A DNA stretch of 64,000 nt from Phycisphaerae bacterium. Lineage in GTDB: Bacteria; Planctomycetota; Phycisphaerae; Phycisphaerales; UBA1924. Positions 374 to 29,255 of the stretch are shown here, one piece after another (position 1 is the stretch's first letter; every line of letters starts with the position of its first letter). The notes under the pieces are model-generated. The model was not told the DNA's origin, did no database searches, and saw only the letters and a list, made by a program, of their open reading frames with translations. The position numbers and the translations under genes were made by a program. The stretch spans positions 620,001 through 684,000 of the forward strand of contig JAUILU010000001.1 in the NCBI GenBank assembly GCA_030432905.1, in the 5' to 3' direction.

Positions 374-639
374 GGCCAACCGTACGCAGCCGAGCGAATC
401 GGTGCCGAGAGGCGATTGACCCTGCAAAAACAGGCCCAAAATGCCCCGCAAAAACACTCATAAACGACAGCGCCGCAGGCTTCAAATCAAAGCAAAATGA
501 AACAAACCCGATAAAATCCGTGTTTTTTAGGGGTAAATTGCACCCACTGGCCCGATAAGCACTTGCGAAACACGAATGAGTCGGGTACAAACCGCCCGAG
601 TTCCCGGGCGAGGACTGCCCATAAACGGAGAATATGGAT
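374..639. other. AT-rich divergent intergenic region
   Basis: This stretch separates the minus-strand dehydrogenase from the plus-strand HU gene. It is clearly richer in A and T than its surroundings, especially 480-540, and must hold both promoters. A TAAAAT hexamer at 512-517 resembles a -10 box, but no convincing -35 lies at the right distance. No gene is called here. Confidence 0.4.
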
Positions 640-1116
640 ATGGCAAAGCGAACCGCTAAGAAGAAGACAACCCGCAAACCCGCAGCTCGCGGCAAGAAGG
701 TTGCCAAGAAGAAGACAACCGCACGCAAGACCACCGCACGCAAGGCACCGGCTCGCAAGACCGCAGCCAAGTCGGCACCAGCGAAGAAGCCAGCCAAGAT
801 CGTCGGCGCCAAGGGCAAGGCTCGCACCAAGAGCGACGTCCAGGCCACCATCGCTGATCAGGTCGGCATCTCCAAGAAGGAAGTCGCCGCTGTCTTCGAG
901 ACCATGGGCCAGATGATCGCCGCCGACCTCAAGAAGGGCAACGCAGGCACGTTCAACGTCCCGGGCCTCATGAAGGTCGTCGTCCAGCGCAAGCCCGCCA
1001 CCAAGGCTCGCAAGGGCATCAACCCCTTCACCAAGGAACCAACCGTCTTCAAGGCCAAGCCGGCCCGCAACGTCATCAAGGTCCGCCCGCTCAAGGCGCT
1101 CAAGGACATGGTCTGA
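640..1116 (+). CDS. HU-family DNA-binding protein with histone H1-like Lys/Ala tail
   Basis: A 158-residue basic protein. Residues 1-60 are a low-complexity tail built of KKTT, ARK and AKK units like the tails of histone H1-like bacterial proteins. Residues from about 66 on form an HU/IHF-type domain: a helical part beginning SDVQATIADQVGISKKEV, then the DNA-binding arm with NVPGLMKVVV and INPFTKEP. It should bend and compact DNA in the nucleoid. Two ATGs lie close together at 634 and 640. GGAG at 627-630 is 9 bases from the second, so 640 is preferred. A strong hairpin terminator follows, so the gene is probably monocistronic. The HU assignment is firm. The role of the tail in compaction is inferred from similar proteins. 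Confidence 0.9.
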   Translation: MAKRTAKKKTTRKPAARGKKVAKKKTTARKTTARKAPARKTAAKSAPAKKPAKIVGAKGKARTKSDVQATIADQVGISKKEVAAVFETMGQMIAADLKKGNAGTFNVPGLMKVVVQRKPATKARKGINPFTKEPTVFKAKPARNVIKVRPLKALKDMV

Positions 1117-20858: not shown

Positions 20859-21902
20859 ATGGGAACCTTCTACACACTCGACTTCGAGAAACCACTCGCA
20901 GAGATCGAGAAGCAGATCCGCGATGCCGAGTCCGGCAACTCGGCTCCCGCCGCGCCGGCCGGCGTCGAAGGATTCGACGCATCGGCGAACCCAAACGCCG
21001 CGGATCTCGCGGACCTCCACAAGCAGCACACAAAGCTGCTCGAGGAACTGTACACGGACCTCAACCCGTGGGATACCGTACGCGTCAGCAGGCACCCGAA
21101 TCGTCCGCAATCTCGCGACTACATCGAGCATTTCGTCCGTGACTTCGGCGAACTCCACGGCGACCGGCGCTACGGCGACGACCCCGCCATCATCTGCGGC
21201 TTCGGTCGCATCGGCACGCACAAATGCCTCGTCGTCGGGCACCACAAGGGACGCACGACACAGGAACGCATCCAGTGCCACTTCGGCTGCGCTCATCCAG
21301 AAGGCTACCGCAAGGCCCTGCTCAAGATGAAACTCGCCGAGAAATTCGGCACCCCCATCGTCACATTCGTTGACACACCCGGCGCGTACCCCGGCCTCGA
21401 AGCCGAACGCCGAGGTCAGGCAGAAGCGATCGCGGTCAACCTGCGCGAGATGGCGCGCATCAAGGTCCCGATCCTTAGCATCGTCATCGGCGAGGGCGGC
21501 TCGGGCGGTGCGCTCGGCATCGCGGTCGCCGACAAGGTCGCCATGCTCCGAAACTCCTGGTACTCGGTCATCAGCCCCGAGGGCTGCGCCGCGATCCTGT
21601 GGAAGCAGGCCAACGAGCAGACCAACAGGTCGGCAGCCGAGGCGCTTAACCTCACCGCCCGCGACAACCTCAAGCTCGGCATCATCGACGCCGTCGTCGA
21701 GGAACCGCTCGGCGGCGCCCACCGCGACCCCGACGCCGCATCGGACATGCTCCGTGACTGGATTGTTCAGGAGCTGGATATCCTCAAGACCAAGACACCC
21801 GACGAACTGCTCGAGGGGCGGTACGACCGTTTCCGAAACCTCGGTGCGTTCAACGAGGCTCCGGTCGAAACGCCCGCCACGGCTTCTGAAGACGCGTCGT
21901 AA
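20859..21902 (+). CDS. accA: Acetyl-CoA carboxylase carboxyltransferase subunit alpha
   Basis: A 347-residue protein matching AccA, which with AccD transfers the carboxyl group from biotin to acetyl-CoA in the first step of fatty acid synthesis. The N-terminus DFEKPLAEIEKQI and the core are typical: SRDYIEHFVRDFGELHGDR, RIQCHFGCAHPEGYRKAL, TFVDTPGAYPGLEAERRGQ, VIGEGGSGGALGIAVADK and SVISPEGCAAILWK. A spacer of about 20 Ala/Pro/Gly-rich residues after the first helix and a Thr/Ala-rich tail make it a little longer than E. coli AccA. accD is not adjacent. The ribosome site CGGAG lies 8 bases before the ATG. Confidence 0.95.
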   Translation: MGTFYTLDFEKPLAEIEKQIRDAESGNSAPAAPAGVEGFDASANPNAADLADLHKQHTKLLEELYTDLNPWDTVRVSRHPNRPQSRDYIEHFVRDFGELHGDRRYGDDPAIICGFGRIGTHKCLVVGHHKGRTTQERIQCHFGCAHPEGYRKALLKMKLAEKFGTPIVTFVDTPGAYPGLEAERRGQAEAIAVNLREMARIKVPILSIVIGEGGSGGALGIAVADKVAMLRNSWYSVISPEGCAAILWKQANEQTNRSAAEALNLTARDNLKLGIIDAVVEEPLGGAHRDPDAASDMLRDWIVQELDILKTKTPDELLEGRYDRFRNLGAFNEAPVETPATASEDAS

Positions 21903-21962: not shown

Positions 21963-22055
21963 TGGCCCACCGCTGCAGCTTTCAGTGATTCCGTATTTTG
22001 TTCGGGGTCGCACAACAGAGCGAGCTGGCCAGCGGCCCACTGTCAAAGGATCGCG

Positions 22056-23015
22056 GTGGCAACGAAAAAAGCTACAACCAAAAAGAAGACCTCGGCGAAG
22101 AAGAAGACGACCGCTAAGAAATCGGCTTCCAAGAAAACCGCCACCAAGAAGTCCACGGCGAAAAAGTCAGCCTCCAAGAAAGCGACCGCAAAGAAGTCCG
22201 CTTCGAAGAAAGCCGTGACCAAGAAGTCCGCCTCGAACAAGACCACGACAAAGAAGACAACCAAGAAAGCGACCACGAAAAAGGTCGCTAAGAAAACAAC
22301 CAAGGCTTCATCGAAGAAAACGACCAAAAAGAAGCTCTCGAAGGCCGACCAGGAAGCCGCGGAGATGGCCGCGTCGAAGAAGGCCGCCGAGAAGCGCATC
22401 GCCGACGCCAAGGCAGCCGACGCAAAGAAGAACTCGGGCCGTAAGGGCATCACAATCGTTGATGACAAGCCCAAGCGCCGCTCGGCCAGCAGCAAACCGA
22501 CCAAGGTCTTCGCGCCGCCGCCCGGCAGCGGCCTGCTCAGCATCAAGCGCAAGCCGCTTATCGCTTCAGGTCCCAAAGCGCCGTCGAGCCCGCACAGCAA
22601 CTTCGGCGAAGAAGCCGAGCAGCCGAAGAGCAAGAAGAAGCCGAAGTCGCCCTTCAACAAGCGCGAGCTCGATAAGTACCGCGAAATCCTGCTCGCCAAA
22701 CGCCGCGATCTCGTCGGCGACGTCGCGACCATGGAAAAAGGCGTGCTCTCGCTGGGCGACAAAGGCGGCGACCCCGCAACCGACGTCGCGGAGCAGGGCT
22801 CTGACGCCTACGACCAGTCGCTCTCGATCGGTCTGGCCGAGGTTGACCGCAAGCTCATCCACGAGATCGACAATGCGATCGAGCGGATCGAGAACAAAAC
22901 CTTCGGCCTCTGCGAGGTCACGGGCAAGCCGATCGCGACCAAGCGTCTCGACGAGCTCCCCTGGACCCGCATGAGCATCGAAGCTGCCCGCGAACTCGAA
23001 CGCCACGGCTCGTAA
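22056..23015 (+). CDS. DksA/TraR-like protein with long Lys/Ala tail and degenerate zinc finger
   Basis: A 319-residue protein with a GTG start 5 bases after AAAGGA. Residues 1-110 are a histone H1-like tail of KKTT, KKSA and SKK repeats; residues 110-205 are charged linker. From about 205 it follows the DksA/TraR pattern: coiled coil KRELDKYREILLAKRRDLVG, then DPATDVAEQGSD and a second helix, then IENKTFGLCEVTGKPIATKR. In canonical DksA the last part is a C4 zinc finger. Here only one cysteine remains (FGLC) and the others are replaced (EVTG, PWTRMSIE). It probably still enters the RNA polymerase secondary channel, while the tail may bind DNA. It lies 2 bases upstream of lspA, a common gene pair. 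Confidence 0.85.
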   Translation: MATKKATTKKKTSAKKKTTAKKSASKKTATKKSTAKKSASKKATAKKSASKKAVTKKSASNKTTTKKTTKKATTKKVAKKTTKASSKKTTKKKLSKADQEAAEMAASKKAAEKRIADAKAADAKKNSGRKGITIVDDKPKRRSASSKPTKVFAPPPGSGLLSIKRKPLIASGPKAPSSPHSNFGEEAEQPKSKKKPKSPFNKRELDKYREILLAKRRDLVGDVATMEKGVLSLGDKGGDPATDVAEQGSDAYDQSLSIGLAEVDRKLIHEIDNAIERIENKTFGLCEVTGKPIATKRLDELPWTRMSIEAARELERHGS

Positions 23016-23017
23016 CG

Positions 23018-23635
23018 TTGACCGATCCCGCGCCATCCGTTTCCGCTGTCAGAAGCAAACGCTCATGGGCGATCCTGCTCATCGTTCTGGTGTTCGGTCT
23101 CGTCTTCGACCTGTGGAGCAAGGACTACGCCTTCAAGCACGTCGGCGAGTACCCCGTCGTCGTCGAACGCGAAGAGGTCCTGAAGGCTTCTGACCCACGC
23201 AACCTCGTCCCGCCGTATCGCCCGGTCGTTGTGATCCCAAAGGTCCTCAACTTCACACTCGTCCTGAACCAGGGCGCCGTCTTCGGCATGGGTGCCGGCA
23301 AGCGATGGCTGTTCATCACGTTCACGGGCGGCGCGATTCTGCTTGGCATTTGGATGTTCGCGGCGTGGACCACAAGCAAGGACTGGATCGCGCACATCTC
23401 GCTCGGGCTGCTGCTCTCGGGCGGGCTCGGCAACCTCTACGACAGACTCGTGTACGCCTGCGTACGCGATTTCATCCACCCGCTGCCCGGCGTTGAGATC
23501 GGCGGCTGGGAAGTCTGGCCCTACGTTTCAAACGTCGCAGATGCGCTGCTGATCATCGGTATCATCGGACTGATGTGGCACCTCTGGCGGAGCGAGCCGA
23601 CCAAGCCTGCGGACGAAACCGAAACCGCAGGCTAA
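23018..23635 (+). CDS. lspA: Lipoprotein signal peptidase (signal peptidase II)
   Basis: A 205-residue inner-membrane aspartic protease that cleaves prolipoprotein signal peptides after lipid attachment. Four hydrophobic helices are visible (SWAILLIVLVFGLVFDLWSK, WLFITFTGGAILLGIWMFAA, WIAHISLGLLLSGGLGNLYD and VADALLIIGIIGLMWHLW). The two catalytic aspartates lie in LGNLYDRLVYACVRDFI and SNVADALLI. It is longer than the usual 160-170 residues because of an insert of about 35 residues after the first helix. A TTG start at 23018 follows the DksA-like gene by 2 bases. Several lipoproteins in this window (LpoB-like, COG3014-like, TPR) would be its substrates. Its stop overlaps the convergent gene's stop. 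Confidence 0.94.
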   Translation: MTDPAPSVSAVRSKRSWAILLIVLVFGLVFDLWSKDYAFKHVGEYPVVVEREEVLKASDPRNLVPPYRPVVVIPKVLNFTLVLNQGAVFGMGAGKRWLFITFTGGAILLGIWMFAAWTTSKDWIAHISLGLLLSGGLGNLYDRLVYACVRDFIHPLPGVEIGGWEVWPYVSNVADALLIIGIIGLMWHLWRSEPTKPADETETAG

Positions 23636-28763: not shown

Positions 28764-29255
28764 TTACGCGAAGTGGCTAAACGCCTTGTTCGCCTCGGCC
28801 ATGCGGTGGACTTCCTCACGCTTGGTCATGGCCTTGCCCTCGCCGCGGGCGGCGCTGAAGATCTCGTCGGCCAGACGATCGGCGATCGGGCGGCCCTTCT
28901 CGGCGCGAGCCGCGGTGATGATCCAGCGGAACGCCAGCGCCTGCTGACGCTTGCGGTCGACCTGCATCGGGACCTGGTAGTTCGCACCACCGATACGCTT
29001 GCTGCGGACCTCCACGAACGGCTTGACCTTGTCGATAGCCATGTGGAAGCAATCGAGCGAAGACTTCGGCGCGTTGGGGTCGTCGATCTTGTCCAGACGA
29101 GCCTGGATGTTGTCGAGGGCGTTGTAGATGTTGCGCTGGGCAACAGACTTCTTGCCGTCGAGCATGATGCAGTTGGTGAATTTGGCGAGGATCTTGTCGC
29201 CGAAGACGGGATCTGGGCGGAGCTGGTCCGCGCTGCGTGTGATTCGACCACCCAT
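28764..29255 (-). CDS. rpsG: 30S ribosomal protein S7
   Basis: A 163-residue protein matching S7, which binds the 3' major domain of 16S rRNA and starts assembly of the small-subunit head. MGGRITRSADQLRPDPVFGDK, LDGKKSVAQRNIYNAL, VEVRSKRIGGANYQVPMQV and FRWIITAARAEKGRPIADRL are the conserved stretches. GGAG 9 bases before the ATG at 29255 sets the start. The normal neighbours fusA and tufA do not follow; a hairpin does. Between it and rpsL lies a tRNA-Tyr gene. Confidence 0.96.
   Translation of the reverse strand: MGGRITRSADQLRPDPVFGDKILAKFTNCIMLDGKKSVAQRNIYNALDNIQARLDKIDDPNAPKSSLDCFHMAIDKVKPFVEVRSKRIGGANYQVPMQVDRKRQQALAFRWIITAARAEKGRPIADRLADEIFSAARGEGKAMTKREEVHRMAEANKAFSHFA

Follow-up and report, generated by a model that had tools for sequence, protein, structure and literature searches.

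Textbooks present DksA as the partner of ppGpp. In the E. coli protein, ppGpp is described as contacted by R91, L95, K98, R129 and K139, and the K98A or R129A variants are reported to remain bound to RNA polymerase with loss of site 2 ppGpp (PMC7676912). The two aspartates of its coiled-coil tip are described as required for function and not for binding. The DksA2 protein of P. aeruginosa retains two of the four zinc cysteines; it is reported not to coordinate zinc, and to be functional. The role of Chlamydia trachomatis DksA is described as largely unknown. Myxococcus CarD, another factor acting on RNA polymerase, has an HMGA-like domain that is reported to bind DNA, to be required for full activity and to be replaceable by histone H1 (PMC4374960, PMC8156234). 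In HupB, an H1-like tail is reported as indispensable for nucleoid association (PMC5676037). Our search for a tailed DksA, made in the open-licence literature, where subscription journals are mostly not covered, returned no report.

Such a protein is encoded in the window, by which we mean the whole stretch of 64,000 nucleotides analysed here, taken from a 3.4 Mb assembly (94.75% complete) of a member of the Phycisphaerales (Planctomycetota). Its gene lies at 22056–23015 on the + strand, starts with GTG and codes for 319 amino acids followed by a stop; a ribosome-binding-site-like AAAGGA, read from the sequence, is placed five bases ahead of the start (22045–22050, +). The upstream neighbour is accA (20859–21902, +; NCBIfam TIGR00513, 399.6 bits for a cut-off of 319.3), and neither a promoter nor a terminator was found on the + strand between the two genes. 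Downstream, lspA (23018–23635, +; TIGR00077, 74.5 bits for a cut-off of 73.95) starts two bases past the stop of the dksA-like gene. We also note a reverse frame of 239 residues at 22043–22762 (−), rich in Phe, Val and Ala, that mirrors the lysine codons and carries no evidence of being a gene.

The order was sampled with 61 genomes, 59 of which have a match to the DksA/TraR profile PF01258; the two without a match are 87% complete. By our script's rule lspA follows the tailed gene in 58 of the 59, and in the last (G010, locus L010) a same-strand lspA frame is also there, opening upstream of the rule's limit. accA stands upstream at most loci of the protein's own family. An lspA-dksA neighbourhood presumably occurs in Chlamydia as well. 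Among the best 80 of 155 related loci, the labels are nearly all Phycisphaerales, Phycisphaeraceae, Phycisphaerae, Planctomycetaceae or Planctomycetota; the few odd ones include Leptolyngbya sp. PLA1, Candidatus Kuenenia stuttgartiensis and 'uncultured bacterium'.

The C-terminal part of the protein, residues 196–319 (22641–23012, +), is a DksA/TraR domain made of a coiled coil and a small globular part, as a first-pass annotation of this DNA had noted; the FGLCEVTGKPIATKR wording named there is present. PF01258 is passed at 26.2 bits for a curated cut-off of 24.9 (30.3 bits in the genome search), and a genome-wide profile search gives this protein as the sole PF01258 match of the source genome. 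DksA_N (PF21157) stays under its cut-off (20.5 versus 27 bits) with the right residues aligned, 205–278. The NCBIfam DksA models also match below cut-off, and the canonical DksA equivalog TIGR02420 is not reached (58.7 versus 115.5 bits). The source genome also has a GreA/GreB-type factor. Elsewhere, two genomes of family f5 carry, besides the tailed DksA, a second and short TraR/DksA-like protein (L002 in G048, L011 in G056), that of L011 being a four-Cys one.

The AF2 model of the domain consists of a confident hairpin of helices 7–39 and 52–84 and is weak at the tip and at the C-terminal end. Through this model, the domain matches E. coli DksA (1tjl_A) with Z 14.1 and 1.5 Å over 116 residues, and the zinc-free P. 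aeruginosa DksA2 (4ijj) with Z 13.7, the best non-DksA row having Z 8.8. The top eight rows of a Foldseek search are all DksA, from P. aeruginosa (DksA2), E. coli, Chlamydia trachomatis and Agrobacterium. L17, G26, R102, L103, P107 and W108 are among the invariant alignment columns of the domain. Since the model matches DksA structures, binding to RNA polymerase is likely.

The coiled-coil tip, aligned with the DxxDxA of E. coli, reads DVAEQG, that is DxxExG (22782–22799, +). Both acidic places are thus kept in the window protein, with D74 replaced by Glu and A76 by Gly (E. coli numbering); in most relatives D71 has become His (34 of the 41 own-family genomes). Given these substitutions and the need for the aspartates in E. 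coli DksA function, activity may differ here.

The domain has lost its zinc site. In the alignment, E. coli positions 114, 117, 135 and 138 are occupied by C, T, S and A, so the annotation's count of one cysteine kept out of four was right. The retained one is Cys286 (22911–22913, +), and the lost positions are Thr289 (22920–22922), Ser307 (22974–22976) and Ala310 (22983–22985), all on the + strand. A four-Cys site occurs in none of the 59 order genomes with a match; their patterns are CTSA in 26, CTTA in eight, CTCV in seven, CTCA in four, plus nine rarer ones. From 18 other families of the class we read 95 of the 96 genomes with a match, the remaining one (G069) having a PF01258 match without a profile hit; the site is gone in 86 of them, mostly as CTCY, and CCCC in nine. 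A recent or single-genome defect is ruled out by these two counts of four-Cys sites (0/59 and 9/95).

The zinc state changes four times on a tree of 207 rows, computed with the zinc columns masked from a short alignment that leaves 93 of 203 inner branches open. The tree and the position counts omit loci that score below 40 on the profile or have no readable first Cys; L191, L256 and L262 are without a profile hit. In the phylum sample 160 of 199 genomes have a PF01258 match, and about 50 loci were read from these. Judged from these sequences, the cysteine loss, whose ancestry the annotation had left as a point to check, is old and ancestral at least to the order. DksA relatives with C-x-x-T presumably also exist in Bacteroidota.

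Loss of most ppGpp contacts, absent from the first-pass annotation, accompanies that of zinc. In the aligned window protein V, E and L stand at the places of E. coli R91, K98 and R129; L95 is kept, and position 139 falls outside the aligned fragment, an ungapped extension placing Ala there. Of the 41 own-family genomes, 37 have Glu at position 98 and 28 have Leu at position 129. K98 is mostly gone even in four-Cys planctomycete DksA (kept in 0/9 of the class and 3/39 elsewhere), so its loss is either older than that of zinc or independent of it. From the contacts described in PMC7676912 we infer that R91 and K98 sit where DksA meets both polymerase and ppGpp; without them, the hold on polymerase could be weaker too.

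The synthetase side is nearly empty as well. A profile search of the source genome, with 11 of 14 controls positive, did not find RelA_SpoT (PF04607), and the domain occurs in six of the 61 order genomes, in frames of 210–357 residues (L318–L323). Such short frames may encode small alarmone synthetases instead of complete RSH enzymes. Atkinson et al. 2011 are cited for the absence of RSH from the PVC genomes known then (PMC3153485).

In front of the domain, residues 2–93 (22059–22334, +) form a Lys/Thr/Ala/Ser tail of the histone H1 kind, which the annotation had likewise noted. Over residues 2–99 it contains 41% Lys, 22% Thr, 17% Ala and 13% Ser, with a net charge of +39. Its 39 Lys per 90 residues are the highest among 346 stop-free window frames of at least 90 amino acids; the runners-up have 22, in the tail of an HU-like protein, and then 10. 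The HC2 profile (PF07382) matches below its curated cut-off (34.1 versus 40 bits; best stretch in the genome search, 38.3 bits). An Ala/Lys/Glu/Asp block conserved in the genus alignment, LSKADQEAAEMAASKKAAEKRIADAKAADAKKNSG, follows at residues 94–128 (22335–22439, +).

Comparison of the window gene with four genomes of the same genus gives pN/pS of 0.28–0.46 for the tail, over alignable codons with synonymous sites near saturation, and of 0.12–0.30 for the domain, which is better conserved than the tail. All tail length differences within the genus preserve the reading frame. Purifying selection in the genus, and the spread of the tail across families, rule out an artefact of frame or repeats. 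A tail was scored as present from 40 residues and 20% Lys+Arg upwards, with more than twice as many basic as acidic residues. The annotation would have been undone by a tail missing in nearly all relatives; the opposite was found, with 57 of 59 order genomes passing the rule. The exceptions are G022, truncated at a contig end, and G037, which has a tail of 311 residues with 15% Lys. In the other families of the class 70 of 95 genomes pass, and relatives in families f7 and f16 have no tail. In the untruncated proteins of the order the tail length, approximate as start codons were picked by composition score, lies between 72 and 371 residues. For the 41 own-family genomes the median net charge of the tail is +46, and for the 24 genomes from the order's five remaining families it is +42.5. 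Lysine-rich N-terminal tails are also found on the principal sigma factors of actinobacteria.

The tail state, scored with a looser 18% cut, changes 17 times on the tree. Other classes contribute 37 untruncated four-Cys rows, 17 of them tailed, in a biased sample whose first loci are the best PF01258 scores and whose L230–L249 were chosen mostly as long frames. Since tails also occur on some four-Cys planctomycete DksA of other classes, zinc loss and tail are separable traits. For a link between zinc loss and tail gain the tree offers two independent pairs on the starred branches and four when every branch is counted, not enough to show one. Several of the four-Cys proteins from other planctomycete classes have lysine-rich tails of about 165–355 residues (L083, L088, L230, L236, L237, L242 and L246).

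Between tail and domain lie two short motifs: RKGITIV at residues 129–135 (22440–22460, +), with GITIV-like versions in 26 of 41 own-family genomes, and PLIASGP at residues 167–173 (22554–22574, +), with PLIxSG in 25 of 41; neither is found in the 24 genomes of the other order families. The invariance of PLI in our 54-row alignment (A3) is circular, its 53 relatives having been selected for PLIxS[GA]. Docking of the motifs on the domain is unsupported, the linker having a pLDDT of about 50–60 in AF2.

At the other end of the chain, an acidic C-tail, taken as a terminal segment of at least 10 residues with at least 35% Asp+Glu, is present in 40 of the 160 class genomes read, order included. In 36 of them the basic N-tail is there too, and these polyampholytes come mostly from families f9, f20 and f15. 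In f20 and other families of the class, loci L044, L046, L056, L059, L217 and L225 combine the basic N-tail with a strongly acidic C-tail that reaches 78 residues. The acidic C-tail of the sister families may screen or switch the basic one, and its presence there suggests that a simple tether to DNA does not explain everything.

The source genome places tails of this type on chromatin-type proteins, both HU-fold and free H1-like. HC2 matches occur in it at two places, the DksA-like tail and a free H1-like protein. The latter (L310, contig C8, 1195–2397, −) is about 330 residues long, with Lys/Arg/Thr/Ala repeats; its frame exceeds the HC2 cut-off together with neighbouring matches in the frame. 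There are three HU-fold places, one of which is in the window, at 634–1116 (+): an HU/IHF-fold protein of 160 residues (PF00216, 56 bits) with an H1-like Lys/Arg/Ala/Thr N-tail of about 55 residues. Its tail and that of the DksA-like protein share low-complexity matches only (best E 0.041). Across the order, HC2 matches are found in 34 of 61 genomes, part of them at DksA loci.

Altogether, we give about even odds (roughly 0.5) to the protein being a zinc-free, ppGpp-independent factor of the polymerase secondary channel that is held on DNA by its histone H1-like tail. The DksA-like domain would fold without zinc and work without ppGpp, and the lysine-rich, disordered N-tail would bind DNA without sequence preference, in the fashion of histone H1 tails. 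With its tail on DNA and its coiled coil at the polymerase, the protein would sit on both: at DNA or the nucleoid and, via the coiled coil, on RNA polymerase. Such a dual attachment might raise its local concentration at promoters or hold the polymerase near DNA, and in this way act on transcription. The chromatin-type carriers of similar tails in the source genome speak for the tether; against it, RNA, polyphosphate and acidic proteins are further possible ligands of lysine-rich tails.

Disordered stretches of Lys, Ala, Thr and Ser have no specificity for DNA, which counts for a tail bound to RNA, either ribosomal or nascent, that would couple the polymerase to RNA or to ribosome assembly. 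Ribosomal-protein-like frames, which we take to lie near position 29000 of the window and not to adjoin the tailed gene, count in the same direction. The HC2 nucleoprotein match (34.1 and 38.3 bits) points to DNA, as does the HU-fold protein that carries the window's second tail of this type, both being compatible with RNA too; we regard an RNA-binding tail as quite improbable. Polyphosphate is a ligand suggested for the tail of Pseudomonas AlgP, an H1-like one reported to associate with polyphosphate granules, and by the same token our factor could reside on granules. The polyphosphate kinase profile PF02503 was not found in the source genome, with 7 of 14 controls positive, and we give this reading very little credence.

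Alternatively, the tail could be a device for nucleoid retention or solubility that has no regulatory role, the DksA domain doing everything and tail length drifting. Lengths of 72 to 371 residues, the 17 state changes and the f7 and f16 relatives that manage without a tail fit such drift. Retention in 57 of 59 order genomes and a pN/pS below 1 within the genus speak against it, and we hold it unlikely. It is also conceivable that the domain is inactive at RNA polymerase, the protein belonging to the nucleoid with its coiled coil serving merely as scaffold or dimeriser; the lost zinc ligands, the loss of R91, K98 and R129 and that of D71 in most relatives would agree. Against this stand a domain conserved above the tail, with invariant columns and both acidic tip places left in the window protein, the reported function of zinc-free DksA2 and the polymerase binding reported for K98A or R129A variants in E. 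coli (PMC7676912). A purely nucleoid-bound domain seems to us very doubtful.

How the tethered, zinc-free factor relates to described proteins is best seen one by one. P. aeruginosa DksA2 shares the DksA fold without a C4 zinc site, and its reported two cysteines resemble those of two-Cys relatives within the order; it is a small paralogue for zinc starvation that accompanies a four-Cys DksA1, whereas the window protein is its genome's only PF01258 protein and bears a long basic tail. C. trachomatis DksA (6ptg; CT407/CTL0664), from the same superphylum, is the best PDB sequence match and has C-x-x-S in place of C-x-x-C in the alignment, but the match is confined to its residues 52–126 and its chain of 132 residues is too short for such a tail. 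E. coli DksA (1tjl, 5vsw, 7khi) is alike in fold and in the position of the coiled-coil tip, and differs by its four-Cys zinc site, its DxxDxA tip, its ppGpp site 2 residues and the lack of such a tail. Hc2 and other bacterial H1-like proteins, AlgP and the HupB tail are alike in tail composition and HC2 match; they have no DksA domain, and the HC2 match of the window protein is below the curated cut-off.

By analogy, Myxococcus xanthus CarD is a working precedent for the joining of a polymerase factor to a chromatin tail: as described, it combines a polymerase-binding module with a basic, disordered, chromatin-like tail that binds DNA. An acidic segment is found in CarD and likewise in the sister families here. 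However, the polymerase module of CarD is unrelated and binds the beta subunit instead of the secondary channel, and its tail is C-terminal with AT-hooks, in contrast to the N-terminal tail of the window protein. CarD_TRCF_RID (PF02559) gives no row for the window protein at E up to 1, and the only PF02559 match of the source genome, a frame of 1184 residues on contig C7, is probably Mfd.

The first-pass annotation had spoken of a new kind of regulator. This is too strong, because the CarD tail is reported to be replaceable by H1 and a working zinc-free DksA has been described; what stands as new is the combination of a tail with a zinc-free domain in the DksA family, its fixation in the order and the loss of ppGpp contacts. 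If correct, CarD would be joined by a second bacterial polymerase factor that independently bears a chromatin-like tail. The whole order retains DksA at a fixed place by lspA, in genomes that have almost no ppGpp synthetase domains and with most of the ppGpp contacts lost; what DksA does without ppGpp becomes testable. More tentatively, and with doubt prevailing, DksA of the Phycisphaerae could be a constitutive, alarmone-free, zinc-free and chromatin-bound factor, balanced by the acidic tail where there is one (36/160) and, in the own family, binding a partner through RKGITIV and PLIxSGP. If that is true, transcription would be controlled through nucleoid occupancy and no longer by a small molecule.
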